Shown here one piece after another: positions 5,856-36,904 of a DNA stretch of 64,000 nt. Below the pieces are notes generated by a model. The model had not been told where the DNA came from, made no database searches, and saw nothing but the letters and a program-made list of their open reading frames with translations. The stretch spans positions 1-64,000 of the forward strand of contig JAEFAE010000005.1 in NCBI GenBank assembly GCA_016291135.1. The letters are read 5' to 3'. Every line of letters starts with the position of its first letter. Position 1 is the stretch's first letter. The translations under genes were made by a program, and so were the position numbers. This DNA comes from Bacteroidales bacterium. GTDB lineage: Bacteria; Bacteroidota; Bacteroidia; Bacteroidales; F082.

Positions 5856-7832
5856 TTAACCGTTACCACCCGCTCCGCCCCTCAATCCATAATACCCCTC
5901 TCCCATCATCACAAACCTCTCCCTGTCGCTTCCCAAGCTCGATGCAACACTTTTCTTATTCGTGTAAGGATAGTCCCGCAACACTTTCTCCATGATGACA
6001 TCGATATGCAAAGGAGTCCCGGCCTTCTTGAGTATGTCGGCCACCAAATCCCTGACGCTCCCCCGATACACATCATTCCATTCCGCCAAGGCATATCTCC
6101 CGCTTATCCCGATGGGCTTTATGATGTCCGAACGCAGTATCTTCCCTCTCATCTCCTCCGGCTTCTTGTACCTGACTTCCGGGCATCTCTCTTTCAGCTC
6201 AGCAAACAGTTCTGCCAAACTCATAGGTCTGCGCTTGCTTCGGAGGATTTCGCTCAACTCAAATATCACATCAACCCCATTGGGAGGCAATATAATGTTC
6301 CCTTTATCATCAACAACCAATCCGTATGCCTTGGTGACGATTGCCGGCATAACCATTTTATAATCTTCTATTTTGTCATCGGGCACATTCTTCAGCAAAT
6401 CGCCAAGCCAGATGGTTTCAATCACCGACTTAATTCGCCTGTTTTCCCTGTTGATTTCCTTGCAGATTCTCTCGATGATTTGACTGCTGAAACGATTGTT
6501 CACCAAAAAACGCACATCATTCACCTTTACCATTTTCAGCGGGAACCCTCTGGTACAAACCTGGGTAAACACGTCAAAGGTAATATTCACTTTCTCGCGT
6601 TCAACGACATTCAAATACAAATCATCAATTTCGGTCGTGACAAGGATGCTGTCAAAATGGTAATCCCGCCAATCTTTGTCTTTGAACAAATCTCTCGGTG
6701 CCGTTTCCAACAGCTGTCTGATGCGCTCCCGGCTGTATTCCAACTCCTTTCCTATCTCAGCCATGTTTTTGGGACTCCCGTCACACAAACCCGTTGCCAT
6801 AGCAAACATCCTATCCAAATGTTCATTCGAGTGTGCCAAACGTTCTCTTAGCAGGAAAAACATAGGATAATATTCGTATTGCTCAACAAACTCCGCCACA
6901 AAATCAATTTGTTCCTCCGTCAGATAATGATATTTTTTCGCAATGAAGTCTTTAAGTATCTCTTTCTTGTCAAGGTTTTCATAATCAAACAGCACAACAT
7001 TCAACCCGTCCAACAAATGAAACAGTTCACGGTAGGTCATTCCCCAAGGCCGTATTTCTTGTAAAAGTCCTCTCACCTCTTCTTCCGAGAGCAGAAGCAT
7101 CCCAGCGGCCTTCGAATAGTTGGGAATCAGCAACCGCTGATGTCTTTTCACATCTCTCGGCAACAAACCAGTCCTAATGTCAAAGTCATCCAGGAGAGCT
7201 TTTCGCCTGATATTTAAATCCTTGTCAACGGCTTCAAGCTCTTCCGCAAACCGTTCGTCACAAAACCATAAAACATTCCTTGCGATGACAACCAGTTCAT
7301 AAGTCAAGGTTCCGTCCAGGTTTTTCTTTCTAATCTCGGCATGAATGATCGAAAGCAGTTGGTAGCAATAATGCTTCAACTCCCAGTTCTCCAATTGGTT
7401 GAACCTGTTGACCAAATTCTTTTGGTCGAGGCAGAAGAAGCCATAAAACGAATGCGGTCCATTGAAGGTGGCGTAAAACCATTTTATGCCATCCAGCGAA
7501 AAGTCCATCAAAGGCCTGCGGTAGTTTGTTTCAAAGATGAATTTCAATTCTTCGGGCAAATCTTCATATAGATCCACCTTGTTTACGAGTTGGATGACTT
7601 GTCTCTTGTTGATTGGAGCGACTATCTTTTCTAGCTCCTCAATGGTTTTCCTACCACAATTACGCAACTTCGGCAAATCCCCATCATGATACACCCGAAG
7701 CAACTCGCCCACAGTGTACATTTCACATCCCACACACACCAAGTAAGCCCGCGACGAAATCATGCCGGCATCATAATACCTCTGGATCGGTGTCCTGAGT
7801 ATCGCCCTTATGTCTTTCCCGGACGTAATCAT
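5856..7832 (-). CDS. Multi-domain protein with alpha-CTD-like, sigma-4-like and HARE-HTH-like modules
   Basis: A 658-residue protein if read from ATG 7832. A longer reading from 7889 is open, but the -7 element at 7875-7868 lies inside it, so I prefer 7832. Residues 27-71 resemble the RNA polymerase alpha C-terminal domain (TVGELLRVYHDGDLPKLRNCG, then GRKTIEELE). Residues 356-376 look like a sigma region 4 helix-turn-helix (MAEIGKELEYSRERIRQLL). Residues 522-584 and 592-652 look like two winged-helix HARE-HTH domains, the second ending in GEGYYGL. All of these are nucleic-acid or polymerase-contact folds. No enzyme motif is visible. A transcription-associated or DNA-sensing role is an inference. 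It follows the KaiC-like gene on the same strand but has its own promoter. Confidence 0.7.
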   Translation of the reverse strand: MITSGKDIRAILRTPIQRYYDAGMISSRAYLVCVGCEMYTVGELLRVYHDGDLPKLRNCGRKTIEELEKIVAPINKRQVIQLVNKVDLYEDLPEELKFIFETNYRRPLMDFSLDGIKWFYATFNGPHSFYGFFCLDQKNLVNRFNQLENWELKHYCYQLLSIIHAEIRKKNLDGTLTYELVVIARNVLWFCDERFAEELEAVDKDLNIRRKALLDDFDIRTGLLPRDVKRHQRLLIPNYSKAAGMLLLSEEEVRGLLQEIRPWGMTYRELFHLLDGLNVVLFDYENLDKKEILKDFIAKKYHYLTEEQIDFVAEFVEQYEYYPMFFLLRERLAHSNEHLDRMFAMATGLCDGSPKNMAEIGKELEYSRERIRQLLETAPRDLFKDKDWRDYHFDSILVTTEIDDLYLNVVEREKVNITFDVFTQVCTRGFPLKMVKVNDVRFLVNNRFSSQIIERICKEINRENRRIKSVIETIWLGDLLKNVPDDKIEDYKMVMPAIVTKAYGLVVDDKGNIILPPNGVDVIFELSEILRSKRRPMSLAELFAELKERCPEVRYKKPEEMRGKILRSDIIKPIGISGRYALAEWNDVYRGSVRDLVADILKKAGTPLHIDVIMEKVLRDYPYTNKKSVASSLGSDRERFVMMGEGYYGLRGGAGGNG

Positions 7833-7867
7833 TCTCTTTAATATTCCTGCTACTTCAACTTGAGCCG

Positions 7868-7923
7868 CAAAATTATTCCAACCACCCAATACCCCCCAAA
7901 CAAAACCGCAGGAAATATGCGGG
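7868..7923 (-). promoter_or_regulatory. Promoter with upstream inverted-repeat box
   Basis: The minus strand reads TTG (7899-7897), 21 bp, then TAATTTTG (7875-7868). CGCAGGAAATATGCGGG lies at 7907-7923, 31 bp upstream of the -7 element. The position relative to the promoter matches the boxes before 5496 and 15364 within one base. This supports start codon 7832 for the gene downstream. Confidence 0.6.
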
Positions 7924-8001
7924 AAATGATGCTGTGTTTATCTTTTTCATTTTTACATTATGTAACATAATAAACAAAACAAGAATTCAGGCTGGTGCAA
8001 T

Positions 8002-10530
8002 TCAGGACTCTTTCGTTTTAGCCTTCTTATTCTTCCGATTATCTGTTTTGGGTTTACGCCCCTCTATCATATTATCCGTTCCTATAACAGCCCACATTTG
8101 CCTAATTATCTCGTTTTCTTTATCAAGCATATTAATATTTGTTCCGCTCGGAACTGAGGCATAAACATAATTGGTCATGTGATGTTTCTTAGTATAGGAA
8201 GCTATTGCCGGCAGCACAAGACCTTCCTTGTTTAAGCACGGATAAGCAAAACTCATATAATTCAAATCGCCAATGATTAAATGCGTTCGCTCATAGTGAG
8301 TATCAGGCGCGACCTCCTTTTTGTTAGTTCTCGATATTGCGTGCACCTGTTGATCCAACGCCCACATAAACTCATCTGCATGAAGATATCCAGGTTGAAA
8401 AGTAAAAAGATGAATGTTATCCTTATTACTTTTATTAACTTGTTCAATTAAATTGTAATATTTGTGCTTGAATTCAGTCCTGTTGAAATTCAAATCAACG
8501 AAGAGAAAATTATGTTCATTAAACTTTTTTGATTTTAATTCATCCAAAATCATTTTCATAGCATTTATCTTATCGGAATGCAGCACTCCTTTCAAAGCGC
8601 TCTTGTTTGTATCAAATCTAACCTGTTTATCCGATGCATAAGCATATTTTTCATAGAAATCGCCTTTTTTTATAGTCTCATCAGAAAACAAACCATTTTC
8701 ATCTAGCCAAAACGGATAAGGATCCTCGTCTATGGGGAGTAAAGCATCAGCAACAATATCGTCCATAAGATAGCGTGTTATCAACTGAAAATGTATGCTC
8801 GGTATCACCTCGATTCCCGCCATACGCATCTTATAGCTATGCCAGCCATATGCATTTCTCTGATACAAACACTTTGATATACGTAATGCGTGATAAAGTT
8901 GGTCTGGGTTCGGTCTCTCTTTTATGGCCATATCTATTACTATATCTGTGCTTATTTCTGAAGATTGTATTTTTTCATCCGCTGTGATAACACCTATTTT
9001 ACAGGCCTTCCTTAATTTATCCGACAGGGCATTAAATGGACATTGAGCAATTTCCTCTTTTGTCAACCGAGACAAGCCATCGACCATAATATAATCAAGT
9101 ATCTTCCCTCCATTATCTTTTGGCAAATACTTATCTATAATATCCAATAGATTATTAAACGTTGTCAATCCATCAGCCATCCGATTTCCTTTATTCAACT
9201 CATCTCTACCAACAATCTTCACCAACGAATCCTCTGGAACAAATAACTTACACAACAACATATCTCCTGTATCAGGAGCTCCCTTTTGATGGCGCAAATG
9301 CAATCCATGTGTTCGTCCATTATAATAAATAAAACTGCTTCGAATATGACTGGCAAAAGTCCGAGTTTGTTTTTCTGAAGGTTTACTACCCATTATTGAA
9401 GGCAGCCCGTATTTTACCAAATATCCATTTTTCGGTTTATCCTTCTCACAACACGAATTATCCAAATACCACACCATTCTTTGTAATAGTTCCACAGAGG
9501 AGTCCGCGAACTTATTCCCAGACCTAATATTCCGTATTAAACGCTGCATATAAAAATCATAGTATTTACTTTTTAATGAAACGCCGTCTTTATTTAATGA
9601 TATAAAAAGGATCTTTTCATCTGCATGTCTTTTTGATTTACCGACACCCTTAACCTCCTGATTTATTTCAACTAGCTTTTTAATATAATTACACTCATCT
9701 CCTTCTATAATACTTTTTAAAACTTCATTTTCAACATCTTCTTTCTCCTCGTATTTAAGAAACTGATCAACCAAATTACCCTTTTTCTTCAATTCTTCCT
9801 CAATAAATCTTGCAAAAACACCATAATATACAGCAACTTCTTTATTAAACCTCCTTAATTCCCTCCTATCATTTTCTTCACCATGACTTTTTACCCATTC
9901 TTTTACACGACTGGTAAATCTTTTTATGATATTATATGTTGTTTCTTCAACAACATACATTCGTAAAAGCGAAGTGCTGTAATTTTTAACTGCATCTTCC
10001 AAAGCTTTCTCAACATCCCCTTTATTCCTATAGTAATCCAAACCATAACGCTCATTCCAATAACTTTCTATTAACTCTTTATTATCATTTAAAGTTTCTT
10101 CTACAAATCTTATCGCACAGTTACGAGCAAACGTATTATCCTCACTATATTTCTTATGGAATTTCTTCAACTTTTCATCCTTCTCCATCTGCTTTCTTAC
10201 ATATTCTTTGATGATTTCTGTTACAGAGTCCGCAACAAGCATTTTTAAAACCGAGACATCATCAAATATAAAACTCTTATTTATTGCAGAAGACAATGGG
10301 CTAAAACTTTCAAATGCATTAACTTCATCTGTTTCATTTTGGGAGATATATAGTCCTTCACACATCTGCATAGCAAGATGTATCTTATTTACTCCATGCT
10401 CACCTCGAGCCAAAACAAGTAAACCATCAGAGTTCTCAGTATTATGTTCCAATTGTATGCCGCCATAGAACAACTCATCTAGTCCTTCTATGCCCGTACT
10501 CAGTTTTTTCTTGTTGTTATTGTTCTCCAT
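8002..10530 (-). CDS. KaiC/RecA-like ATPase with large insertion and degenerate P-loop
   Basis: An 842-residue protein. It opens with LSTGIEGLDELFYGGI (residues 10-25), the hallmark entry of KaiC-type RecA domains. The P-loop position reads RGEHGVNKIH instead of GxxGxGKT, so the Gly before Lys is Asn and the Thr is Ile. Residues about 65-430 are a long, charged helical insertion. The fold then resumes with a Walker B-like DYIMVDGLSRL, a RISK segment and GIEVIPSI, as in KaiC. The last 280 residues hold a second Walker B-like strand (THLIIGDLNYM), which suggests a second degenerate RecA unit, and a basic tail. It overlaps the SIR2 gene by 14 bp and is surely co-translated with it. A sensor or regulator of the SIR2 effector is my inference. 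Confidence 0.7.
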   Translation of the reverse strand: MENNNNKKKLSTGIEGLDELFYGGIQLEHNTENSDGLLVLARGEHGVNKIHLAMQMCEGLYISQNETDEVNAFESFSPLSSAINKSFIFDDVSVLKMLVADSVTEIIKEYVRKQMEKDEKLKKFHKKYSEDNTFARNCAIRFVEETLNDNKELIESYWNERYGLDYYRNKGDVEKALEDAVKNYSTSLLRMYVVEETTYNIIKRFTSRVKEWVKSHGEENDRRELRRFNKEVAVYYGVFARFIEEELKKKGNLVDQFLKYEEKEDVENEVLKSIIEGDECNYIKKLVEINQEVKGVGKSKRHADEKILFISLNKDGVSLKSKYYDFYMQRLIRNIRSGNKFADSSVELLQRMVWYLDNSCCEKDKPKNGYLVKYGLPSIMGSKPSEKQTRTFASHIRSSFIYYNGRTHGLHLRHQKGAPDTGDMLLCKLFVPEDSLVKIVGRDELNKGNRMADGLTTFNNLLDIIDKYLPKDNGGKILDYIMVDGLSRLTKEEIAQCPFNALSDKLRKACKIGVITADEKIQSSEISTDIVIDMAIKERPNPDQLYHALRISKCLYQRNAYGWHSYKMRMAGIEVIPSIHFQLITRYLMDDIVADALLPIDEDPYPFWLDENGLFSDETIKKGDFYEKYAYASDKQVRFDTNKSALKGVLHSDKINAMKMILDELKSKKFNEHNFLFVDLNFNRTEFKHKYYNLIEQVNKSNKDNIHLFTFQPGYLHADEFMWALDQQVHAISRTNKKEVAPDTHYERTHLIIGDLNYMSFAYPCLNKEGLVLPAIASYTKKHHMTNYVYASVPSGTNINMLDKENEIIRQMWAVIGTDNMIEGRKPKTDNRKNKKAKTKES

Positions 10531-11629
10531 TTTTAAGTTCTCCTAGCATTTTATAAATATGACCATATCCTTGTTCATCATATAGAACCGTGAGGCCGTT
10601 TTTTTCATGAAATTTATTTTTAATACTATCTTTTATTTTCTTTTTTGCATCACCACAACCAGCCGTAATATAATATAGATTTCCGTGATGCTTTCCTTTT
10701 ACATAGTGCAGCAAACGTTGGTTGGTGTAATCATCAAGCGAAAGGCCACAAAAAAGACATGTGTACTGTGACAGGAAATGAAGTTGAGAAGCAATCTGCC
10801 ATGAATAAACATTTCGTGAATCCTCGTAGAACTCATCCATTGAAAGCACTATTCTGTTGTCTTTTGGTGCCTGTATGTCATCGTAACGAGGAATAAAGCC
10901 ATGAACATGATAGATGTTCAAATGATTATATGTAAAATCAGTTTTACCTTTCCAATCGCAAATGATGTTAGGGGTTATTTCCCTAACTTCATTAACGCGG
11001 TTTTTATAATCTGGACAACTTTTCAAAAAGCAAATAGCATCACACAAGAATTGATCATAGTTTTGAGTAACAACGGCTCTGATATTGCGATTACGCAATA
11101 TCAAATCCGCAATGCTAAATAAAGAAAAGAAACTAGGCTTAATGTCTGTTTTACTATTCAAATAATCAACATAATTTTTACCCGCTTCCTCTATCTCTTT
11201 CTTTTCCATCCTGCCATATAAAAAATCCTGAATCAATTTCACATATACTTCATTTCCCAAAGTCTGTTTCACTATAGTTGCCTTAACATCACGAGGAAAC
11301 CTGAAATCAAAATCAATTTGTTCTTCCAATCCAAACAGCCTTTTTTTCAAAACCTCTTTGTTGCTTTCATCCTCATCACAAAGCATCTCCTTAATCAACT
11401 TTTTTGCAGAAGATGACATTTCATCCGCCATCTGTTTCCCCATGTCATCCGCTGGTAACAATTGCATAACAGCATACGATAGCAAATGGTTCAGCAAGGC
11501 ATCCCATGAATAATCCACCCCGTGAGGAGCCTCAAAATCAATGCCAGCACCTAAAAAAAGAGCTATAGATCGTTCTTGCTTGAAGTCTTCTTCAAGTTGT
11601 TCCCAATGCAAGGGTTTTCTGTTTCCCAT
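10517..11629 (-). CDS. SIR2-like (probable NADase) protein
   Basis: A 370-residue SIR2_2-type protein. The nucleotide-binding FLGAGI lies at 25-30, the TQNYD motif (Asn190, Asp192) contacts NAD in the family, YHVHGF holds the predicted catalytic His243, and CLFCGLSLDD (291-300) is the typical C-terminal Rossmann strand. Stand-alone SIR2 proteins of this group in defence islands cleave NAD+ and stop phage growth by killing the infected cell. That activity is known for the family and inferred here. No zinc-ribbon of deacetylase sirtuins is visible. It overlaps the KaiC-like gene by 14 bp and lies 123 bp after the caspase-like gene. Confidence 0.85.
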   Translation of the reverse strand: MGNRKPLHWEQLEEDFKQERSIALFLGAGIDFEAPHGVDYSWDALLNHLLSYAVMQLLPADDMGKQMADEMSSSAKKLIKEMLCDEDESNKEVLKKRLFGLEEQIDFDFRFPRDVKATIVKQTLGNEVYVKLIQDFLYGRMEKKEIEEAGKNYVDYLNSKTDIKPSFFSLFSIADLILRNRNIRAVVTQNYDQFLCDAICFLKSCPDYKNRVNEVREITPNIICDWKGKTDFTYNHLNIYHVHGFIPRYDDIQAPKDNRIVLSMDEFYEDSRNVYSWQIASQLHFLSQYTCLFCGLSLDDYTNQRLLHYVKGKHHGNLYYITAGCGDAKKKIKDSIKNKFHEKNGLTVLYDEQGYGHIYKMLGELKNGEQ

Positions 11630-11752
11630 ACCTACGTTTCTATTACTTTGGTTGCAAGTTTATTCTTTATTTCGTTTTTTGCGTTTCAAAAACCTTTGCA
11701 AAAAGCATACAATCGCCTGAATAGTCCAGCCCTCATCCACAATGCGTACCAA
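11630..11752 (-). promoter_or_regulatory. Short gap with a weak promoter-like sequence before SIR2
   Basis: The only -7-like element is TAAACTTG (minus strand, 11662-11655), one base off TAnnTTTG, with TTG about 24 bp upstream. No clear terminator follows the caspase-like gene, so read-through from the genes upstream is also possible. Confidence 0.3.
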
Positions 11753-13234
11753 TCAGCCAAAACTCTTGATAGAAAAATCAAGTTTTATCTTGTTGTTTTT
11801 CACATAAACATCCTTGTATTCAACAGTATTACCATTGATGATTCTTTTTGAATACGACAAAGGAATAGGGCCGTCAAAACCCCATCCGTTTTCGATGTTA
11901 AAGTCAAAACTATATGTCCTGATATGATCATTGGGATTTGTCTTATCCCAATCCCACACTTCAACATTGAGATAGATATGGCTCTCTCCATTCAGGATGA
12001 ACGAATCATAGAAAACATTTGTGTTTTGAGGATGTCCAGCATCAACAGCTTTCCCCTCGTAAATAATATCAAACTCTTTGCCTCCATGCTTGCGCTTACT
12101 GTAATCTGGCCAACGCTTAGAATTCTCAATACACATGTCATCCTGCCACATTTTAACGACAACATACATCTCTAATGAATAATCTGTATAACCATCCCGG
12201 ATCCTCCCTGTTTGCCTGATGTGATTAAGGATGTATTTTAATGTGGTATGTCCCGCCACTCTTCCATCAGCATATTGAACAATTACACCACCCATAAAAT
12301 TCTGATATTTTATAGTTGTTCCACTTACAGTTTCCACTGGACCTACCGCAAAACCATAAATGCCTGTCTCACCGCCATGCTGCTTATAATACGCATCTAT
12401 GGTTGGATTCTCTGATGTAACAAATCTTGGACCCGTGCAAACAGGGACATCACCAAAAACAGGGAAAGAAGTGTTTTCCGGGTAGCACAAATCGTTCTGG
12501 TGTTGCTTGTTATCGTATGTTTTCTGACTTGTGTAGTCACACAAATCTTTTAACGACACGAAACCATCATGGTTAGTATCAGCATAACGTCTTGTGGCCA
12601 TTGATTTCCCATAGTCCCAACCTGCACCTTTGCACCAAGATTTTGTAAAATAATTCCCACTGGTATTACCCCAAGCACTTTCGTCACCATGACATGCGGT
12701 TATGACAAGGTAGTTGTTAGCACGCAATTCTCCCGTTTTAAGATTTAAATTGGCTTTGTTTGGCACAAAAGTGTTAATAATTGCCCTATTTACGTCCTCA
12801 GGGGTTTTCTTTGACAAACTCCTAGCTCGAGTAATGCTCTCACCAGATTGGCAGGATTCTATCATCAACACTTTCATTCCAGGGATTGTATCCAATAACG
12901 ATTTGAGTTGAGTATATGTAATTAAAACTGTCTTTGGTCCCCTCAAAACCATCGCCAGGCCACTCGTGTTTCCGTGACAATTGATATAGATGTAACTTAC
13001 GCTTCTATTATCGGCACTCATGAATACTTTTTCAATGGTGTCTCTCAACGTCTCATAAGTAACATTCGAAACTACCACTGGGGAAATATTGTTCCGATTG
13101 AACATGCCCGTCACCATCTTCCTGTTGGATTCTCTTCTAAGGTATTCTCGTTTTAAACTTTCCTGATCATCCGAACTAGTATTAAGTGTGATCATGTCGG
13201 ATGCTGTAATTATTAAGCCTAAATTATTATTCAT
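11753..13234 (-). CDS. Caspase-like (clan CD) protease with EF-hand, LGFP-like and C2-like regions
   Basis: A 493-residue protein from ATG 13234, which has GGAGA upstream. A longer open frame to 13375 overlaps the KwaB-like gene and is not used. Residues 1-185 form a caspase/metacaspase-like p20 domain with His87 in YINCHGN and Cys128 in IESCQSGE, the expected dyad. Asp219-Asp230 (DTNHDGFVSLKD) is an EF-hand loop, so calcium may control it, as in metacaspases. Residues 285-330 (HGGETGIYG through GGVIVQYADG) resemble an LGFP repeat, and 415-445 (IYLNVEVWDWDKTNPND) a C2-type strand pair. There is no signal peptide. It lies 52 bp after the KwaB-like gene. Cleavage of a toxin or of a neighbour's product on infection is inferred. 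Confidence 0.75.
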   Translation of the reverse strand: MNNNLGLIITASDMITLNTSSDDQESLKREYLRRESNRKMVTGMFNRNNISPVVVSNVTYETLRDTIEKVFMSADNRSVSYIYINCHGNTSGLAMVLRGPKTVLITYTQLKSLLDTIPGMKVLMIESCQSGESITRARSLSKKTPEDVNRAIINTFVPNKANLNLKTGELRANNYLVITACHGDESAWGNTSGNYFTKSWCKGAGWDYGKSMATRRYADTNHDGFVSLKDLCDYTSQKTYDNKQHQNDLCYPENTSFPVFGDVPVCTGPRFVTSENPTIDAYYKQHGGETGIYGFAVGPVETVSGTTIKYQNFMGGVIVQYADGRVAGHTTLKYILNHIRQTGRIRDGYTDYSLEMYVVVKMWQDDMCIENSKRWPDYSKRKHGGKEFDIIYEGKAVDAGHPQNTNVFYDSFILNGESHIYLNVEVWDWDKTNPNDHIRTYSFDFNIENGWGFDGPIPLSYSKRIINGNTVEYKDVYVKNNKIKLDFSIKSFG

Positions 13235-13286
13235 GATTAATCTCCTTATAATTTTTTTATTTCTTATTTTTCCAACATATATAATC

Positions 13287-14123
13287 CTACACCACCTTCG
13301 AAATCCCAGTGGAACTCGTGGCCACTTGAACTTCATCCTCCAACGGAGGCATGTAAAACCGCTGCTGGATGCCATAAAGTAACAAGCGAAGTTGGGTGTC
13401 GGTGTTTACCAAGAACTTCCCGGCTTTATCATCAAAATCCAAATTGCCGCCAACGCTCTTTTTGATGTATTCTTTTAAAGTAGCTTTCTCTTTGAGAGAA
13501 TACGCCTCATATTTTGTCAAAATAGAAGTGATGCGTTTTCTGTTCGACACACCAACCTTGTCCATTGGCAACGTTTTAGCATCCACAATATCTGACTGAA
13601 GAAAACGATTGGTCTCATCATCAGTAGCCACCTGATAATCCATTTTAAGACTACTGAAAATGCCGTATGCTTTTGCAATGTCCATAAAGTAAATCACTTT
13701 AGAGCTAGTGTCATAAATGCAGTTTGGAATAGGATTGATGTAGATGATGCCTTCGTCCTCTTGATACCTAAGGATGTCCCCATCCCAGGAAAACCATTTC
13801 TTCTTCAAATAATTACCTCTGGTAATTTTTTGCATGAAATAGCGTCCTCGGTCAAAAAAGGCGATGAACTCAATATTATCATACTGTTCCCTTTCAAGAT
13901 TATCCAAATCGGCAGCGTTGATCTGTTGGGCCAACAATGGCAAGAAACCCTCTTTTTGGTCGAAACCGTCTATCTTGAACCATTGGTTTGCTTCGGTATT
14001 GTTCGGGTCGTATGCTACGGCATCGTCCAATACGATTTCCGAAAGTTCGTCATTTATAACCTGGTCAATAATTTTGTACCAGTGTTCATTATCATCTTTG
14101 GTTTTCGCAACAAAAATACCCAT
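13287..14123 (-). CDS. kwaB-like: KwaB-like DUF4868 protein (Kiwa-type defence)
   Basis: A 278-residue protein that fits DUF4868 in its middle (about 83-165, IEFIAFFDRGRYFMQKIT then a Tyr-Asp segment) and its C-terminus (residues 234-270, where an acidic beta pair is followed by LRLLLYGIQQRFYMPP). DUF4868 is the KwaB family, the cytosolic, DNA-associated partner in the Kiwa anti-phage system. The gene starts 8 bp after a four-helix membrane-protein gene in the order known for kwaA-kwaB, which raises confidence. It is a little shorter than the E. coli protein (about 315). I could not test family membership by search, so the call rests on pattern and context. Confidence 0.6.
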   Translation of the reverse strand: MGIFVAKTKDDNEHWYKIIDQVINDELSEIVLDDAVAYDPNNTEANQWFKIDGFDQKEGFLPLLAQQINAADLDNLEREQYDNIEFIAFFDRGRYFMQKITRGNYLKKKWFSWDGDILRYQEDEGIIYINPIPNCIYDTSSKVIYFMDIAKAYGIFSSLKMDYQVATDDETNRFLQSDIVDAKTLPMDKVGVSNRKRITSILTKYEAYSLKEKATLKEYIKKSVGGNLDFDDKAGKFLVNTDTQLRLLLYGIQQRFYMPPLEDEVQVATSSTGISKVV

Positions 14124-14131
14124 AACTTTTT

Positions 14132-14710
14132 TTAATATTTATCCACATCCAAATACACCAATTCGTTTATTTTTCGCAGGTTGGGGAACGAGAGTCTGTT
14201 TTCACTTTTCCTTACCTTGCGTTTTGTTATCACGAATACTTTGACATTGTTCTTTGTCTTCACTCTATAATACCCATAACCAAACAAGATGAATATCGGA
14301 TTGAAACACAGTGATTTCGAAAAAGCCACAAACAAACAGACCATACAATACACAACTATGAGATTGGTCCAATCAACACCACCCGATGCGCTTGCGGGAA
14401 TACCCATGGAGACAAAAATGTACCCCAAATAAACGGGTAAATAATCATTGTTCACAGGGGATATCTCGTCAATATCATACGTAATGGAGTCCGCCGCTTG
14501 ATGCTTCATCCAATACAGCGACACAATGCTTAACAGCACTGGAACGCCAAGAAACACCAATAAGTCAAGACCTGCATCCACGCCATCAATTCCACTATTC
14601 CATAAATGCGTTGAGTTCTTAATAAAATAAACTGCGGGAAGCAAAGACGTAGCCGCCACTGCCATAAAGAACCACGAGAGTATTCTGTATAGTTTTTCTA
14701 ATTTGTTCAT
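14132..14710 (-). CDS. kwaA-like: KwaA-like four-helix membrane protein
   Basis: A 192-residue inner-membrane protein with four hydrophobic segments near 9-29, 47-68, 89-108 and 114-144, then FGYGYYRV and a basic cytoplasmic tail of about 45 residues. Size, topology and place directly upstream of the DUF4868 gene match KwaA, the membrane sensor of Kiwa, which is reported to respond at the site of phage attachment. It is the first gene of the same-strand run KwaA, KwaB, caspase-like, SIR2, KaiC-like. I found no clear TAnnTTTG promoter in the 270 bp upstream. The sequence alone cannot exclude another four-helix family. Confidence 0.55.
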   Translation of the reverse strand: MNKLEKLYRILSWFFMAVAATSLLPAVYFIKNSTHLWNSGIDGVDAGLDLLVFLGVPVLLSIVSLYWMKHQAADSITYDIDEISPVNNDYLPVYLGYIFVSMGIPASASGGVDWTNLIVVYCMVCLFVAFSKSLCFNPIFILFGYGYYRVKTKNNVKVFVITKRKVRKSENRLSFPNLRKINELVYLDVDKY

Positions 14711-14909
14711 TGATATATGTCTACAAATCGGTTAATTATAATTCAAACGACTCGTTACTTGACATCACTTTCCTGCAAGAAACGGGTATAACAAACACGC
14801 CAAAAGCTTATGCCTTATACGTTCAGGTCTTCTCGTTTTGCTTCAGGTACTTGGGGGTAAGGCAATCTTCCACAAAAGCAATCTCTCCTCAAACACCTTG
14901 TTTTATATA

Positions 14910-14929
14910 AAGCCTCTCCTAGGAGGCTT
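14910..14929 (-). terminator. Hairpin after the DUF3244 gene
   Basis: AAGCCTC and GAGGCTT form a 7-bp stem with a 6-base loop, 52 bp past the DUF3244 stop. On the minus strand the stem runs into an AT-rich TTTATATAAAA stretch rather than a clean U-run. The rest of 14711-14980 holds nothing I can name. Confidence 0.55.
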
Positions 14930-14980
14930 CAATGAATGAATCTGTTCTTCTCCTTCATAAACATTATCGTTTCGCGTTCA

Positions 14981-15364
14981 TCAATCCGTCACTGTAAATT
15001 CACCATAATACTCATCACCGTTGGAGAGCATAAAGGTGACAGTGTAATTTCCCGCATTGGGAATGTAAACCTGCAAACCATTCGGCGTCAGCACCGAGAG
15101 ACACTGTACGGAAGCGCCAGCCATCGTAGCAACTTCCACAGATACTTGCCCAATGTTTTCATTGAATACCACCGTGAGAACATGACCATTAATTGAAGGA
15201 TTAATTGAATTACCCTTGCTAAGTCCTGTATAGCTAGACACCTCTAGTAAATCAATTGGAATTCCATCTCCTTCCTTTGTTGACCTATCTTCGCCACGAA
15301 CGAAACAAAACACCCCTGAAAGAATGAAGCAGAGCATCAGCATCAATTTTGTTACTTTTTTCAT
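14981..15364 (-). CDS. DUF3244 family secreted protein
   Basis: A 127-residue protein with a signal peptide (residues 1-23, hydrophobic core LMLMLCFILSGVFCF) and a single Ig-like beta-sandwich that ends GNYTVTFMLSNGDEYYGEF, the common C-terminal pattern of DUF3244 proteins in gut Bacteroidales. It is exported to the periplasm or surface. The function is unknown. The promoter carries the shared 17-bp inverted repeat, and the next gene upstream encodes a membrane-bound TPR/HTH regulator, a pairing that suggests control by that regulator (inference). Confidence 0.8.
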   Translation of the reverse strand: MKKVTKLMLMLCFILSGVFCFVRGEDRSTKEGDGIPIDLLEVSSYTGLSKGNSINPSINGHVLTVVFNENIGQVSVEVATMAGASVQCLSVLTPNGLQVYIPNAGNYTVTFMLSNGDEYYGEFTVTD

Positions 15365-15409
15365 TTTTAGTTTGTTTTAAGTGAACATAATTTGTTGTAA
15401 AATCTGCAA

Positions 15410-15465
15410 CAAATTTACTCCAACCTCAGTATAGCACACAAGTTTTAGCGCAGGAATTTTGCGGG
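15410..15465 (-). promoter_or_regulatory. Promoter with upstream inverted-repeat box
   Basis: The minus strand reads TTG (15441-15439), 21 bp, then TAAATTTG (15417-15410). CGCAGGAATTTTGCGGG lies at 15449-15465, 31 bp upstream of the -7 element. A further stretch (GAAGGAAT, 15471-15478) is also shared with the copy at 5608. The rest of 15466-15729 is AT-rich with no gene. Confidence 0.65.
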
Positions 15466-15729
15466 ATTACGAAGGAATTATACATTAATTGAGCTTAGGT
15501 AGGTGGTAAAACCACTGATTATCAGCAATTTACAAATATACAAATTTTTATAAAATCCCTCCCGCATCCGCAGATTTCCCACACATTTCCATCTAAAAGA
15601 TATATCCAAAAGGGGAAAAGGAATTATCTTCTTTCAAGAATTAAACCAAAAAGAAATAAAAATAGCACCTTTCGCAAGCACGAAAGCACGCTAATACACA
15701 AAACATATCCTTTCAAGAAAAACCACCCA

Positions 15730-18246: not shown

Positions 18247-19782
18247 TCACACAACTACACCCACTTGAAACGGCTCTGTCAGCGCCAGCTTCTTCGTAAA
18301 ATGTTCCACCTCGCATACTAAATCTGGACGTCTTTCTTCGTAAAACTTCATCATTCTAAACCCACTTTCTTTATCAAACTTGTTAAAAGTTATGTTTGCG
18401 TGATGGTCGCTACTTTGCTCATCATAGATTGTCTCATATTTCCCATCACCTCGTCTATATTTGTTCCCAATGCTTTCAGCGTAACAAAAAACAAGTTGAC
18501 AAACCGCTTTCAAGAAATATCCATACCTCTTCTTATCCTCCTGGATCAATTCATCACTTGCCATTGTTTCAAATGTATTGATCAAATCTTGAAGACTATA
18601 TTTGAACGAACTGATATTATCAAACACCTCCGGCTCACACACTTTCAAATAAGTCATCAAAAAATAGACATCTGCAAACAACTTGCTATTTGTCGCCATC
18701 TCACACAGCACTATCCTTGCCAAAGCAAATATTCTTTCCGTTTGCCTCAAATTCAAATGCTTATACTTCACAATGAGTTTGGCAATGGAAAGTAAATCAC
18801 CCTTATCATCAACAGACCGTCCCGTAACAATCCTTTTCCTGCCTTCGCTCTCTGTGAAATCAGCAAAACCATAGAAATCGTATAGGTATTCACAATAATG
18901 ATCGGAATCAGGTTCGGGCAAGTTATAGTCAATATCTATAAATCTCCTCAGATACTCCATCGAATTGATTTGCTCGCTACCATAAAAGCCATTGATGGAG
19001 TAGGCTAACTGTTGTTTGTCTATGGATAGCACAAACACCACATTGGGCACATCAAACAAATGCTTTATTCTCTCCAATACCTTAACGGCAAATGTTGGAT
19101 TACATCGGTCAAGTTCATCAATAAAATACACCAAAGGCCGATTGTTGTCACAAACAAAAGCAACATATTCAACCAGGTCATTTTTGAATTGTTGCAATAC
19201 AATTGCCGTTTCATCTTCTTTGTCAAGAGAATTCACAATCTCTTTTTCAACTACATCTAAGCCACTTTTACCAGCCTCTGCTGCAACATCGCCGAATTTC
19301 CCCAAAGCACCTTTTACAGCGCCCATCCCAATTCCAACAATAATCTTACTGCCCACAGAAAAAACCTTTTTCAATTTACCTTCTTTATCCTCTTCTTTGT
19401 TAACTGTTTTCAAGCACCGCAAAAGAGAGAATAAAGGCTCCTCGCTAATGTCATCTTCCCAGGCGTTGTAATAGATAACAGGGAAGCCGTTGTTTTTTAA
19501 GTGTTGCGACCACATTTTTACAAATGTGGTCTTGCCAGTTCCCCATGTGCCGTTCAACGCAAGAACCGCCCCATCTTGATATGCGAAAGCAGCACTTGTC
19601 AACACTTCGGCATTCTTTTTTCTATCTAATTTATCATTAGCAAAAGGATCCTCTTTAGAAATCACAAAATCCCTAACTTTCGCTTTAACAGAATGATACA
19701 CCTGCTCCGACTTCAACTCCGTCATCTCAGTTTCCATAGTTTCTCTCTCCTTTTTCTTTTTAAACAATTTGCACATAATCAA
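18247..19782 (-). CDS. KAP-family P-loop NTPase
   Basis: A 511-residue protein with Walker A NGTWGTGKTTF (77-87), the family's YYNAWEDD segment (104-111), a hydrophobic Gly-rich pair of segments (about 140-163) that fits the membrane hairpin inserted in KAP domains, Walker B PLVYFIDELDRC (216-227) and a sensor-like VFVLSIDKQQLA. KAP NTPases are membrane-associated and several act in phage defence or toxin control. It faces the DUF3800 gene across a short intergenic region with promoters in both directions. The C-terminal 150 residues have no clear match. Start 19782 and ATG 19776 are both possible. Confidence 0.88.
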   Translation of the reverse strand: MIMCKLFKKKKERETMETEMTELKSEQVYHSVKAKVRDFVISKEDPFANDKLDRKKNAEVLTSAAFAYQDGAVLALNGTWGTGKTTFVKMWSQHLKNNGFPVIYYNAWEDDISEEPLFSLLRCLKTVNKEEDKEGKLKKVFSVGSKIIVGIGMGAVKGALGKFGDVAAEAGKSGLDVVEKEIVNSLDKEDETAIVLQQFKNDLVEYVAFVCDNNRPLVYFIDELDRCNPTFAVKVLERIKHLFDVPNVVFVLSIDKQQLAYSINGFYGSEQINSMEYLRRFIDIDYNLPEPDSDHYCEYLYDFYGFADFTESEGRKRIVTGRSVDDKGDLLSIAKLIVKYKHLNLRQTERIFALARIVLCEMATNSKLFADVYFLMTYLKVCEPEVFDNISSFKYSLQDLINTFETMASDELIQEDKKRYGYFLKAVCQLVFCYAESIGNKYRRGDGKYETIYDEQSSDHHANITFNKFDKESGFRMMKFYEERRPDLVCEVEHFTKKLALTEPFQVGVVV

Positions 19783-21737: not shown

Positions 21738-22997
21738 ATGGTAACAAAAGATTTGCTTAGACAGGTGATCTATGAGCAGCGGGAACTCAACGAGCCGTTG
21801 GGGGTTAAAAGAAAAATATATAACGAACAGATAGAAGCACCAGAAGTTCTTGTGATATCTGGAGTGAGACGATGTGGAAAATCGGTTCTGATGCAGCAGA
21901 TTAAAGCTGGGCAAATCGAGCAAGATTATTGTCTATGTTTTGACGATGATCGTCTCCTGCATTTCGAAGTTTCGGACTTCCAAACGATGTGCGACGTATT
22001 TGCCGAGGATTTCGGCATACAAAAAACATTCTATCTTGACGAGGTCCAGTTAATTGCAGGATGGGAACGTTTCGCAGACAGGTTATACAACCACCACAAC
22101 AAAGTATTCATCACTGGTAGTAATGCATACCTGTTGAGCAGAGAATTGGGCACATTGCTTACAGGGCGTCATCTCACCCAAGAGCTTTGGCCGATGTCTT
22201 TTGTGGAATTCATGGAATTAAAAGGTGAGAAATGGCAGAAAAGTGATCTGTACACGACTGTTGGAAAAGCAAGGTTTGTGAATTTGCAGAGTGCCTATTT
22301 GCATGAAGGCGGTTTCCCACAATACCTTCAAACAAGGAACCCGAGATATCTAAAAGAGTTGTATAATGACATCATCTATCGAGATATCGTGGTAAGGCAC
22401 AAATTGTCTTTGGACAGACAAATACGGGAAGTGGCATATTACTTAGCAAGTAATTTTACGCATCGTTTCACATACCTATCTGTTGCAAGAGTCACAGGTA
22501 TAAAGAGTTCTGAAACGGTTCAGGATTATATACGATATCTAGAGGAAGCCTATTTGGTTGGTGTGCTAACTAAATATGACTATAAGGTGGGCGAGCAACT
22601 GAAGAGCCCGAAAAAGATTTATTTTGTCGACAATGGCTTAGTGGGGCAAATCGGTTTCAGTTTCAGTAGTAATATTGGCCCTAAGCTAGAAAATGCTGTT
22701 TATATAGAATTGCGTCGTCGTGAACAGGAAATCTTTTATTATCAGGATAAATGGGAGTGCGACTTTGTAGTTAGGGAAAATACAGATATTGTAAAAGCCT
22801 ACCAGGTATCGGTATCTTTGGCCGACTCTGAAACTAGTCAACGCGAAATGAAAGGACTCGTGTCTGCGATGGATGCCTTCGGACTCATCGAAGGGGTTAT
22901 TATAACGATGGATGAATCCGAAGAATTAAAACTTCACGACGGCAGGATAATCCATGTAATTCCTTTCTACAAATGGGTATGTGAAGAGAATTATTAA
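21738..22997 (+). CDS. AAA_14/DUF4143 ATPase
   Basis: A 419-residue protein with Walker A SGVRRCGKSVL (41-51), Walker B TFYLDEVQ followed by GWERFADRLYN, and the sensor segment FITGSNAYLLS, then a C-terminal DUF4143 domain (about 190-390) with the conserved SSETVQDYIRYLEEAYLV and a PD-(D/E)XK-like strand (WECDFVV). Such ATPases are widespread orphans in bacteria and archaea. The role is unknown. The gene stands alone with its own promoter. Confidence 0.9.
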   Translation: MVTKDLLRQVIYEQRELNEPLGVKRKIYNEQIEAPEVLVISGVRRCGKSVLMQQIKAGQIEQDYCLCFDDDRLLHFEVSDFQTMCDVFAEDFGIQKTFYLDEVQLIAGWERFADRLYNHHNKVFITGSNAYLLSRELGTLLTGRHLTQELWPMSFVEFMELKGEKWQKSDLYTTVGKARFVNLQSAYLHEGGFPQYLQTRNPRYLKELYNDIIYRDIVVRHKLSLDRQIREVAYYLASNFTHRFTYLSVARVTGIKSSETVQDYIRYLEEAYLVGVLTKYDYKVGEQLKSPKKIYFVDNGLVGQIGFSFSSNIGPKLENAVYIELRRREQEIFYYQDKWECDFVVRENTDIVKAYQVSVSLADSETSQREMKGLVSAMDAFGLIEGVIITMDESEELKLHDGRIIHVIPFYKWVCEENY

Positions 22998-24056: not shown

Positions 24057-25700
24057 TTATTCTTTTTGCAATCTCAAAAAAGCCAGATTGTCTTCCATTT
24101 CTGTTTTATAAAAGTCCCCGGGCCAATCAAAGGCACCTGTTTCATTAATTTCCAGTCGCCTAACAGAAATATAATCTTTCCTTTGATTATAGTCCTTTCG
24201 TTCAAAATAGTAGATGGCAACTTCTTCAGGTGTCAATTGTTTCTTCTCGGCCATTAACCTCCTTAATCTCCTTAGCATATATTCACTGTGGCTTTCAATG
24301 ATGAGTTTCTTGTTTTTATTCGAGACCAACTCGGCAAAAAGATTTGCCAATTCTGCTTGCATCTTAGGGTGTAAATGGATTTCTGGCTGTTCTATCATAG
24401 TTAATGAGTCAGCTTCCGCAGAATGACATTGAATTAGAATGGGTAGTATCTGAGAAACGCCAAAACCCACCTCGGGAATATTCAACATATTCTCATCTTG
24501 TTCCACAATCAAATGATTTATCATTTCTTCATTACTTTCAGATACATCAATAGAAAAATTAAACTTATATAACCATTCATTAACGAATGCCTTGGTCTCA
24601 GGTTTACTTTTTAATATCTCAACACAAGTTTCAGGATCGGAGCAATCGATATAATCCAAATAATGATCTTTATCTAATACATAATAATGCTTGGGTGCAG
24701 CACGAAGAGGGCCAATATGATTGAGTTGATTTAATTCAAATTCATGCATCAAACCTAATAAAACATTCTGGACAATTTTTAGAAAATAGTTTGCCAATGT
24801 TGTTTCATTGTCCTTCCTATTGAAATTTTCATATGGATATTCGAAACATAAAAAAATTGAATTACTATGCATAAAATGGTTTCCAATGGAATCAATGTGT
24901 CGACTACTCATTTCTGACATGTCGATCAAATCCGAATGGAAAACAAAATCCGAATCCTTTTTGGACAATTTAAAAAGTACTTTGTTATCAACCATTATTT
25001 TTATGTCTGAAATCACAAGCTTTTTTCTTTCGTATGAAATTGTGTAAGAAACGGTATACTCATAATTCTCTCTCATTGCATTTTGAAGATTCGAAAGCAT
25101 AGTGTGCACCGCTATAAAATCTCGCTTTGAAGGATCATAGAAATCAGATTTAGACAAACATGTACCATTTATATTAATGGATTCTGAACGTCGTATATAA
25201 TCCTGCGCATTCGGTTTCGAAACGACATCAACTAATTTATTAATAAAAACAGAAAAAGTTTTTGTTTCCATTAGACTATCATCGGTAAACCTCTCACTAT
25301 CACCCAATTTACTACGATTGTAAATCAAGTCACTTAAGCCGGCCAAACGTAAAGAACTGGTCAAACGCAGTATTGAACGCACATATTCCCTCAAACAACG
25401 ACTCAACCAATAATTAGGGGAATGACTGCTAAACTTTATTGCTATTTCGAACGGTTGAGATGTATCCTTATTGCGAAAAAGATGTCCAATTGGTCCCATT
25501 TTAGCAAAATGTCCATGGAGATCTAATGGGGCCTTTTCCCTAAATTTAGATGGTTGAGCGGTTTGGAACAACAACAACAACAATTGAATAAGAGAAGTTT
25601 TACCAGCACTGTTTTCTCCAAGGAATATCGTGATGGGTTTAAGGTCAATTTTAGCTTCTTCGAATCCTTTGTAGTTTTTAACGGCTAACGATTCTAACAT
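24057..25700 (-). CDS. OLD-like AAA ATPase with DUF3696
   Basis: A 547-residue ABC-type ATPase. Walker A is GENSAGKTSL (29-38), a signature-like VGFGVSQILPIL lies near residue 408, Walker B is LTMIEQPEIHLHP (about 428-440) and the H-loop is IIESHSEYMLRRL. The last 60 residues (AIYYFERK, then GAFDWPGDFY) fit DUF3696. No TOPRIM domain follows, so it is not a full OLD nuclease. Such ATPases work with partner proteins in several defence and toxin systems. Here the partners would be the 166- and 69-residue proteins. Confidence 0.85.
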   Translation of the reverse strand: MLESLAVKNYKGFEEAKIDLKPITIFLGENSAGKTSLIQLLLLLFQTAQPSKFREKAPLDLHGHFAKMGPIGHLFRNKDTSQPFEIAIKFSSHSPNYWLSRCLREYVRSILRLTSSLRLAGLSDLIYNRSKLGDSERFTDDSLMETKTFSVFINKLVDVVSKPNAQDYIRRSESININGTCLSKSDFYDPSKRDFIAVHTMLSNLQNAMRENYEYTVSYTISYERKKLVISDIKIMVDNKVLFKLSKKDSDFVFHSDLIDMSEMSSRHIDSIGNHFMHSNSIFLCFEYPYENFNRKDNETTLANYFLKIVQNVLLGLMHEFELNQLNHIGPLRAAPKHYYVLDKDHYLDYIDCSDPETCVEILKSKPETKAFVNEWLYKFNFSIDVSESNEEMINHLIVEQDENMLNIPEVGFGVSQILPILIQCHSAEADSLTMIEQPEIHLHPKMQAELANLFAELVSNKNKKLIIESHSEYMLRRLRRLMAEKKQLTPEEVAIYYFERKDYNQRKDYISVRRLEINETGAFDWPGDFYKTEMEDNLAFLRLQKE

Positions 25701-33980: not shown

Positions 33981-36377
33981 ATGATTGACAGCACTTCATC
34001 ATCAGACATTAAACAGCTAATAGCCGAATGCGGCAACGAGGCAATGAAAAAAATCCTTGACAGCCATCTTCCCGAAAAACTGACAGAATTAGCGAAAGCA
34101 CTAGCAAATTATTATCAGTGTTGCTATTGTGGCATCGGAACAATTGATGGTGACTATGCCGAAGACCGTGCCTGCTGGCCCCAAGGACTACCCGCGAAGA
34201 TGAAGAGAGGCAAACGAAAAGAGGGTCAAAGTGAATACCTTTTGTTCAAAGCCCTTGAAAAGAATGGGAACCCCACAGTTGTAATTTACGGGAAAAATGA
34301 GATTGAAAAAGCAATTAATTCCAAAGCCTATCATGAAAATTATGGTGATTTTGAGTTTTGTTCCATTATCATTTTTCGTGAAAGAGACGAATCACCACAT
34401 GGATATATCCAGTTCCTGAGTGCTGAAAAACCAATTGGAGAGGCTGTAGATTTCCCATTTGCAGAAGATATTCTTCGATTAATTTTTACTATTAAATTAT
34501 GGTATGCACGAAAAGACGAGCATTCCTTCAGAGAAGATTTTGATTTCATCAACTTTATTTCCCAACAGACAGATGATGTGGACTTGATTCTTCAAAAAAT
34601 CATGGAGTATTTGTCCGAAACGTTTAATGCTGGAATTATTTCATACCGAATCCCATTGCTTGTCGGTTCTGATAGAAAGCCTGTTTTTTATCTTCGGAAG
34701 TGGTATATCAGAGACGACATCCAAGACAAAGAACATATTCGTGAGGAGCATTTTACCAAAAGGCTGTTAATCGGACAGGATGAGATGGATGGGGGAAAAG
34801 AATTAAGTCGCAATAACCATGTCTTTCCCATCTTTACCTGCAATCCTGAGGATATTATCAAATTAACCGACGAACAGTTATTGAAAGACAAGGCGGTGAT
34901 TATCCCCATTATCCGAGTCCATGCTGAGAAAAATGAGTGTATAAATAATCTGAAAGCAGATATGTTATGCGAAGGAAATAAAGAATTTGCCTCACATTTT
35001 GAAAAATACCTTGGAGTATTTAATCTACGGATTTTCGAAGTTGCAGAAAACTCTGAGGATAATACTGTTCTCAGATTAGCAACTATGGCAAAGCATATTT
35101 CCTCTATGCTAAGCACTATTGTCACTGAACAAGAGAATCAATCTTTGAGAAAATTTCAGGTTCAATTAAGAAGTACATCGTTCGCAAGAATTGGAGAATT
35201 TGATGAACAATGTGCTAAGATATTGTGTGACTCAGTTGGAGCAGAAGCCTGTGCAATATACAAATATGTAAGACAGCAAGATAAAATGATACTTACGGCT
35301 ACCTATCCAAATGACATGCGTATTTATTCTTCAGGTAATATAATAGTAGAATTCCATAAAGACTTTGGCATAACTCTTGTGAATATTAACAACAGGTTTA
35401 ATCCCCAAAAAGTGAGACCAGACGTTGATGATTCAAGTTATGTTGTCAAATACAAGAATAGACAACTAAACTCGCTGTTATTGAAACCAATAATAAAAAA
35501 GGACGGTTCGAAGTTAGGAATGATATTGCTGCTAGGAAAACGACAGGAGGGGAGCGAGAAACTTGTATCAAAAACCTATTGGGAACAAGACAGGAGATAT
35601 ATCGAGTTCATGGTGGATATTCTTGGTCGGATTGAAGAGTCGGACTCGGAAAGACTGACATTTCTACAGCAGTTGTCTCATGAACTCCGCTCGCCTATCA
35701 CACAAATGGTATCTGGAAACGAGTTGCTGATTGAAACATATAAGCGGAACAAAAATGAGTTATACAGAGGAAAGCCAATCACAGACTATACAATAGGTGC
35801 GCTTGAAGACAATGTGCGGCAGACGATGATGTTCAAGCAAATAATTGGTGATGTTCAATTTATCTATTCACTAAGTAAAGGTGAAGTGTCATACAATCTG
35901 GAAAATGTAGATATTAAAGAATGCATTCTTGATTGCATCAAGTTGTTTGAGAAAGTCCCAGATTCTATTCTGGAAACTCCAAAACGACTAAGTTTTAACA
36001 CTCAGTTGCGACAACTTCCTGTGACTCTTTTCGTGGATAGAGAAAGAATCAAGCAGGTCTTTATTAATCTTCTGAAGAATGCAGTACAATATGCTGATGA
36101 CCATAGTATAATTACTATCAGATACAACTATAATGACGAAATAAAGAGCCACGAAATAGACTTTATTAACTATGGCATCGGCGTGGACCAGAGCAAAGGA
36201 AACCGATTGTTCCAGTTATGGGAGCGAGGTGGAAACGCCCAGCGGCTGCGTCCAAGTGGTACAGGCATGGGACTGTTTATAGTACAAGAAATCATGAAAG
36301 CCCATGAAGGAGAATGCTGTATCAAGAGATATTACAATCCAACAATATTCACAGTGAGAATACCCTTAAAGAAATAG
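33981..36377 (+). CDS. Cytosolic sensor histidine kinase with GAF-like N-terminus
   Basis: A 798-residue protein without membrane segments. Residues 1-550 contain probably two or three GAF-like sensor folds (for example about 20-180, 190-380 and 400-540). The kinase core has His567 in QLSHELRSPITQ, the N-box FINLLKNAVQY (about 694-704), G1 NYGIGVD, an F-box LFQLWERGG and G2 GTGMGLFIV (about 759-767), so it is intact. It is the first of three genes with a lone receiver and a membrane protein. The input is unknown. The layout resembles two-component defence systems such as Detocs, as an inference. Confidence 0.85.
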   Translation: MIDSTSSSDIKQLIAECGNEAMKKILDSHLPEKLTELAKALANYYQCCYCGIGTIDGDYAEDRACWPQGLPAKMKRGKRKEGQSEYLLFKALEKNGNPTVVIYGKNEIEKAINSKAYHENYGDFEFCSIIIFRERDESPHGYIQFLSAEKPIGEAVDFPFAEDILRLIFTIKLWYARKDEHSFREDFDFINFISQQTDDVDLILQKIMEYLSETFNAGIISYRIPLLVGSDRKPVFYLRKWYIRDDIQDKEHIREEHFTKRLLIGQDEMDGGKELSRNNHVFPIFTCNPEDIIKLTDEQLLKDKAVIIPIIRVHAEKNECINNLKADMLCEGNKEFASHFEKYLGVFNLRIFEVAENSEDNTVLRLATMAKHISSMLSTIVTEQENQSLRKFQVQLRSTSFARIGEFDEQCAKILCDSVGAEACAIYKYVRQQDKMILTATYPNDMRIYSSGNIIVEFHKDFGITLVNINNRFNPQKVRPDVDDSSYVVKYKNRQLNSLLLKPIIKKDGSKLGMILLLGKRQEGSEKLVSKTYWEQDRRYIEFMVDILGRIEESDSERLTFLQQLSHELRSPITQMVSGNELLIETYKRNKNELYRGKPITDYTIGALEDNVRQTMMFKQIIGDVQFIYSLSKGEVSYNLENVDIKECILDCIKLFEKVPDSILETPKRLSFNTQLRQLPVTLFVDRERIKQVFINLLKNAVQYADDHSIITIRYNYNDEIKSHEIDFINYGIGVDQSKGNRLFQLWERGGNAQRLRPSGTGMGLFIVQEIMKAHEGECCIKRYYNPTIFTVRIPLKK

Positions 36378-36442
36378 CGGCAGCCACAATACCATATTTA
36401 TGAAAGAATAAAACTCATAATGTAACATAATTCAATCAAACA

Positions 36443-36904
36443 ATGAAAAAGATACTTTTTTTTGATGATGAGCCATTCTATGTTAATCTGTTGATTGACA
36501 ACCTTGAATTAAACCATGGCTGGACAGCAGATAATAAAGGCAAAATAAAATATATTTCGGACCCTGCGGAAATGATTGATGAAATAAAGTCAAGTAATTT
36601 GTATGACCTGTTTGTTCTGGACATCATGATTCCCTCTTATGAAATTGAAAAAAAAGGTATTTTCAATAAGAAAGAAATTCAAAGAATCGAGAGAGACAAC
36701 AATATGGGCATACTGATAGCTGAGAAGATCAGAGCTTTTGAAAAATACAAAACGACTCCCATCATCTTCTTGTCAGCAAAAGGAGATAGAGAAATCCCCA
36801 TTTCATTAGGAGCCCCTGTTGATTGTGTCACAAAACCAACACTTGCCAGAGATTTTTCAAATAAAATGGAAAATATGCTATCATCACAAAATCAAGCCAT
36901 ATGA
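36443..36904 (+). CDS. Stand-alone receiver-domain protein
   Basis: A 153-residue CheY-like protein with the acidic pair Asp8-Asp9, the phosphate acceptor Asp60 in VLDIMIP, Ser in FLSAKG and Lys in TKPTL. About 20 extra residues after Asp60 (YEIEKKGIFNKKEIQ) lengthen one loop. There is no output domain. It starts 65 bp after the kinase gene and overlaps the membrane-protein gene by 4 bp, so the phosphoryl group may go no further than this protein or it may act by contact with the next product. Confidence 0.85.
   Translation: MKKILFFDDEPFYVNLLIDNLELNHGWTADNKGKIKYISDPAEMIDEIKSSNLYDLFVLDIMIPSYEIEKKGIFNKKEIQRIERDNNMGILIAEKIRAFEKYKTTPIIFLSAKGDREIPISLGAPVDCVTKPTLARDFSNKMENMLSSQNQAI

Follow-up and report, generated by a model that had tools for sequence, protein, structure and literature searches.

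SIR2 effectors are known with several types of sensor (HerA, STAND, Argonaute, Thoeris). In the SIR2-HerA system Nezha, immunity is lost in mutants of the nicotinamide adenine dinucleotide (NAD) site and weakened without HerA, according to the accessible part of one study (PMC11559045), whereas Kiwa is described, in the available portion of another (PMC12904381), as a two-gene system and a membrane assembly. Here, we compare with these systems a cassette of five consecutive genes from a Bacteroidales bacterium (GenBank assembly GCA_016291135.1), located in the first 64,000 nucleotides of contig JAEFAE010000005.1, a stretch that we call the window. The genes encode a KwaA-like, a KwaB-like, a caspase-like, a SIR2-family and a tandem KaiC-like protein. 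The cassette probably consists of two, possibly three, neighbouring units within a defence island, namely a divergent Kiwa with the caspase-like gene behind it, and a pair formed by the SIR2 and KaiC-like genes. Judged from comparative sequence analysis, this pair has the appearance of a bacterial defence system not yet described.

A sequence-only reading of the same DNA had favoured a single five-gene system and had offered two neighbouring systems as a fallback. It is the fallback that the comparative evidence favours, with SIR2 and KaiC-like genes recurring separately from Kiwa. A KaiC-like profile matched 9 of 99 genomes of the genus, and a SIR2 gene was adjacent in all nine. In the sample of the order, the profile matched 4 of 393 genomes, a count that includes the window's own genome and one genome (G353) dropped as spurious, its open frame measuring 35 amino acids with one stop. 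A broader profile matched 2 of 171 genomes of another family, one of them already counted, and a scan of the phylum yielded one divergent relative (genome G768, locus L124). The latter scan matched 30 of 296 genomes; the 28 left out beyond the own genome and G768 were mostly matches to the N-terminal ATPase region, and were taken as RadA/RecA paralogues by length alone (27 frames of 447-592 amino acids and one of 251). A scan of genome contigs added locus L013, its four other loci coinciding with L035-L038, and phage records gave one match, the unverified scaffold MT835535.1, which carries both genes. Genome G018 was left out, as it encodes a different SIR2_2 protein. In total, 15 KaiC-like loci including the window were compared, the 14 others over 4.6 to 19.9 kb each.

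In 12 of these loci (the window, L035-L042, L013, L125 and L126), the gene directly upstream of the KaiC-like gene is SIR2, at a spacing that ranges from a 41 bp overlap to a 33 bp gap under a mechanical choice of starts. Genomes that carry the pair belong to two bacterial families, f1 and f60 in the coding used, and one further copy lies on a metagenomic scaffold; gene order is fixed throughout. Clustering the proteins of the 15 loci placed KaiC-like proteins in all of them and SIR2 in 12, the next family being a KAP NTPase in three. Outside the window, neither KwaA nor KwaB was found at any KaiC-like locus (0 of 14), over the lengths compared. The distance matrices of SIR2 and the KaiC-like protein are correlated across 11 loci (Mantel r 0.899, p 0.0001, 9,999 permutations, species descent uncorrected). 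The short KaiC-like frame of L013 kept that locus out of this test. The KAP NTPase was considered as a third partner and rejected: L035 and L036 are the only loci in which it adjoins the pair, and a distantly related KAP gene lies elsewhere in the window. Plasmids gave no KaiC-like match, and scans of viral contigs with KaiC-like alignments, KwaB, SIR2 and a membrane protein of locus L044 gave no relative; the SIR2 alignment produced one weak viral locus (L127), a 547-amino-acid SIR2-like open reading frame with, by eye, no KaiC-like neighbour.

The SIR2 protein of the window scores 38.8 bits against a Pfam SIR2_2 cut-off of 24.5, and residues G27, G29, N190, H241, H243 and G244 are identical in all 11 pairs aligned. 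The pair shares with Nezha its layout as a two-gene unit, in which a SIR2 protein of NADase type is joined to a partner of the RecA superfamily, as well as the active-site Asn and His (N190 and H243 in 11/11 pairs), an equivalence drawn by motif and not by structure. The two differ in the partner, which in the window shows no HerA match and is predicted to have a tandem KaiC fold in which the P-loop is altered. The N-terminal region of the SIR2 profile also matches human FAM118B in the PDB (E = 8.8e-7), and FAM118 has been placed close to bacterial antiphage sirtuins, as stated in the accessible part of PMC12700824; the window protein differs from FAM118B in being bacterial and encoded beside a KaiC-like partner. 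No PADLOC family matched the window SIR2 at E up to 10, and its relative in L126 gave weak matches to PDC-S25 (3e-4) and SIR2 (0.0026). The plasmid search with SIR2 returned one match, locus L128 on a Bacteroides thetaiotaomicron plasmid, where the SIR2 relative (9001-11178) continues in frame into what appears by eye to be a mannose-1-phosphate guanylyltransferase-like part, with no KaiC-like gene.

KaiC is the best fold match of the predicted structure of the partner protein, whose two KaiC-type domains are both covered by full-length KaiC alignments. The Pfam KaiC score is 19.1 bits, below the cut-off of 26.6, and PADLOC, HerA included, gave no match at E up to 10. Whereas the window protein resembles KaiC in its two RecA domains of KaiC type, as predicted, it differs in its non-canonical P-loops, in a long helical stretch inserted into the first domain, and in its SIR2 or membrane partner. 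Its P-loop is conserved, yet lacks the canonical Walker A ending GK[S/T]. Within the close group of 56 proteins, the Lys is kept in 53 and gapped in three, and none has Ser or Thr after it; in a wider listing of 120, Lys is kept in 70, Ser or Thr in 97, and Gly before the Lys in two. The family is large, with 480 proteins at E <= 0.001 in a profile search, the best 120 of which all lie at E <= 1.5e-105.

We propose that the pair likely operates as a KaiC-like sensor that releases a SIR2 NADase and so causes abortive infection. In this model, the KaiC-like protein would form a ring or scaffold that keeps SIR2 inactive, and would sense infection through a phage component or a change in nucleotides. 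Sensing would activate SIR2, NAD+ would be depleted, and the infected cell would cease to support the phage. Because the P-loop in the clade of the window keeps its Lys without the GK[S/T] end, ligand-gated binding would be likelier than motor-like ATP hydrolysis. The novelty would lie in the type of sensor, as this is a SIR2-plus-RecA-superfamily two-gene system with a KaiC-fold partner, and neither window protein matches PADLOC. A literature search that covered preprints and subscription papers thinly found no paper joining KaiC and SIR2 in defence. If the model is correct, KaiC-fold proteins would join the types of sensor that work with SIR2, and a large unnamed KaiC-like family of Bacteroidales would have a candidate function; the altered P-loop would then offer a direct way of testing what nucleotide binding does in KaiC-type sensing.

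Two loci carry a different partner. In L043 (11078-12115) and L044 (8230-9336), a multi-span membrane protein is encoded directly downstream of the KaiC-like gene, in the stead of SIR2. The two membrane proteins are homologous (30% identity, E = 2e-37), with 7 and 8 hydrophobic segments, respectively; that of L043 has no relative in phage records. In L044, the upstream side is unreadable and the KaiC-like frame (9333-11385) is broken or short. The membrane-protein partner in these two loci therefore suggests that the KaiC-like protein is a switch with exchangeable effectors; when coupled to the membrane protein, a switch of this kind would act by opening or disrupting the membrane. If the effector does swap between NADase and membrane type, the KaiC-like protein would be a general switch. 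More tentatively, and with somewhat less than even confidence, we propose that these loci may represent a modular immune class of Bacteroidales not described before, in which a tandem KaiC-fold sensor or switch with a conserved, non-hydrolytic-looking P-loop is combined with an exchangeable output, mostly a SIR2 NADase and elsewhere a multi-span membrane effector.

The tight coupling of the two genes, their patchy distribution and a HipA toxin-type gene near the pair in L035 would also fit a toxin-antitoxin-like or stress module, in which the KaiC-like protein does no more than hold SIR2 in check, and the pair serves to maintain mobile DNA rather than to fend off phages. We consider this unlikely, as an antitoxin would be small, whereas the KaiC-like protein is large and has two domains, and the membrane-protein variant retains the same large partner.

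The surroundings of the pair are mixed. A PADLOC scan of neighbours covered selected genes at four fetched loci. Defence-type neighbours in the window are Kiwa, a KAP NTPase, a PDC-S01 protein and an NsnB/AriA-like ATPase (Table). L035 and L036 have a related KAP NTPase near the pair, the L035 copy matching PifA (4.2e-45), HipA adds a further such neighbour in L035, and L037 has an AbiH-FGE protein and type I restriction-modification. The AbiH-FGE gene (L037 6483-8447), in which an AbiH-like domain is fused to a formylglycine-generating-enzyme domain, immediately follows the SIR2-KaiC pair. A HerA/mad8-like protein is encoded a few genes from the pair in L042.

In L039, L043, L125 and L126, the pair or its variant lies among sugar and polysaccharide genes (L043 by Pfam, the others by eye), as does the SIR2 relative of plasmid locus L128. 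This is the result that weighs most against a purely defensive role, and it is consistent with the pair regulating, or belonging to, the biosynthesis of cell-surface polysaccharide. That explanation is nevertheless quite improbable in our view: the surrounding genes mostly differ between these loci, with only two small families in common, polysaccharide clusters carry variable cargo, and the window, L035, L036 and L037 lie in defence-type contexts. The most divergent locus, L124, has neither a SIR2 nor a membrane partner. At its edge, a 118-amino-acid stretch gives a weak match to the caspase profile (E = 1.2e-4), 7.5 kb from the very divergent KaiC-like gene, the one result that runs, weakly, counter to the rejection of a five-gene Kiwa. 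In L013 (9998-10963), the KaiC-like frame is broken or short, at 321 amino acids, which slightly lowered our confidence.

By their profile matches, the first two genes of the cassette belong to Kiwa. PADLOC identifies both, KwaB (DUF4868) over residues 64-209, whereas Pfam has no family for either at E up to 1, and NCBIfam KwaA scores 32 bits where 100 are required; they are therefore divergent members of Kiwa. A KwaA search matched 8 of 344 genomes of the order, including the own genome, and at all seven other loci (L083-L089) KwaA adjoins a KwaB named by PADLOC, in line with the description of Kiwa as a two-gene system in the available part of PMC12904381. The window KwaA is 36-37% identical to KwaA of L084, L085 and L086, with which it also shares a count of three hydrophobic segments, and 29% identical to that of L087 (BLAST). 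KwaB is 29-31% identical to its counterparts in L084, L085 and L086 (E = 6.8e-34 to 7.6e-38) and 23% to that in L087, so that BLAST relates it to four of the seven KwaB proteins confirmed by profile. In L083, KwaA alone gave a BLAST match to the window (23%), and in L088 and L089 neither gene did.

The main proposal of the sequence-only reading joins all five genes into one extended Kiwa, in which the caspase, SIR2 and KaiC-like proteins would be extra effectors and regulators. The single strand, the short gaps and the known occurrence of Kiwa and SIR2 types in defence speak for such a system. Profiles of the caspase, SIR2 and KaiC-like proteins, however, found no match at any of the seven other Kiwa loci, nor were Kiwa genes found at the 14 other KaiC-like loci, in either case within the stretch compared. 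Moreover, among the 99 genomes of the genus, the single-protein search for KwaB and the caspase profile each matched only the own genome, compared with nine for the KaiC-like protein. Since all seven other loci pair KwaA with KwaB without the three extra genes, Kiwa is a two-gene unit here. The five genes occur together at none of these loci, and we rejected a single unit on this comparison; an extended Kiwa is extremely improbable. Correcting this point spares experiments aimed at a fused system without comparative support. The weak promoter that had been proposed ahead of SIR2 did not stand out either: positions 7500-15500 hold 31 sigma-70-like sites on both strands, versus 27.5 +/- 5.6 in shuffles, which is no excess.

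The Kiwa genes of the window thus match Kiwa profiles and stand side by side as they do at seven other loci of the order, but the pair is divergent and is followed by a caspase-like gene that is absent from those loci. This third gene encodes, by its predicted structure, a caspase-fold protein with a His/Cys dyad, a predicted protease. The model (predicted local distance difference test score, pLDDT, 82.4) retrieved CED-3, MALT1, caspases and legumain with Foldseek (best E = 3.1e-9, probability 1.00), and the Pfam Peptidase_C13 score is 18.4 bits, below the cut-off of 22.8. Of 17 aligned sequences, 16 keep His87 and Cys128; the remaining one, P0063, is without that region. An EF-hand-like loop of DxNxDG type spans residues 219-230 and varies among relatives, and the C-terminal beta domain gives weak PLAT and C2 matches.

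These features, the 52 bp gap behind KwaB and the membrane assembly that Kiwa forms in the accessible part of PMC12904381 would suit a unit made of Kiwa and the protease alone, in which a PLAT/C2-bearing, perhaps calcium-responsive protease would act at the membrane beside the KwaA-KwaB assembly. Such a grouping is seen at a single locus, however, and at none of the seven other Kiwa loci. A caspase scan of the order matched 24 genomes, of which we counted only the own genome and G307; the 22 with a best E above 1e-9, many with frames near 1100 amino acids, we take to be other clan CD proteases. The one clear relative thus obtained (G307, locus L090) is away from Kiwa, beside genes that, judged by eye, are of the outer-membrane nutrient-uptake type. 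The 14 other KaiC-like loci hold no BLAST relative of the caspase, and the plasmids searched gave no match. We therefore hold a Kiwa-caspase unit to be rather unlikely, and retain the caspase-like gene as a neighbour of Kiwa that is possibly a third unit of the cassette.

Table. Genes of the window discussed here, with positions counted from its first letter
Product	Length (amino acids)	Positions	Strand	Assignment	Basis
KwaA-like membrane protein	192	14132-14710	minus	Kiwa	PADLOC KwaA 1.9e-17
KwaB-like protein	278	13287-14123	minus	Kiwa	PADLOC KwaB 1e-7
Caspase/legumain-fold protease-like protein	493	11753-13234	minus		Foldseek, EF-hand-like loop, weak PLAT/C2
SIR2-family protein	370	10517-11629	minus	predicted NADase effector, first in conserved pair	Pfam SIR2_2 1.2e-9
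Tandem KaiC-like protein	842	8002-10530	minus	predicted sensor/switch, second in conserved pair	predicted KaiC fold
Protein just 3' of the KaiC-like gene	677	5856-7889			weak sigma-70 region 4, RNA polymerase alpha C-terminal and HARE-HTH matches
KAP NTPase		18247-19782			PADLOC candidate PDC-S20 5.1e-133
AAA_14/DUF4143 protein		21738-22997			PADLOC PDC-S01 1.1e-106
AAA_15 ATPase		24057-25700			best PADLOC matches include NsnB 1.2e-56 and AriA 4.7e-42
Histidine kinase, response-regulator-like protein and third protein, consecutive		33981-37617
Integrase		42514-44016

All five open reading frames of the cassette lie on one strand, and their coordinates agree with the earlier description of consecutive genes separated by gaps of 8, 52 and 123 bp and one 14 bp overlap, the last between SIR2 and the KaiC-like gene. 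The identities assigned gene by gene in the sequence-only reading also proved right, with KwaA and KwaB recovered by PADLOC, SIR2 by Pfam, and the KaiC and caspase folds upheld by structure prediction. Among the profiles, the two PADLOC families and SIR2_2 matched, but Pfam supplied no KwaA or KwaB family, and KaiC and Peptidase_C13 stayed below their cut-offs. The caspase-like frame is listed as the longer 11753-13375; we took as its start the ATG at 13234, which has an AGGAG-like motif ahead of it. The cassette sits within a low-GC stretch, with 34-48% from 4 to 44 kb versus 52-60% outside (2-kb steps). This stretch comes with an integrase gene (Table). The 677-amino-acid protein next to the KaiC-like gene is not common to the other KaiC-like loci in the protein clustering, and the consecutive genes for a histidine kinase, a response-regulator-like protein and a third protein lie inside the low-GC stretch.

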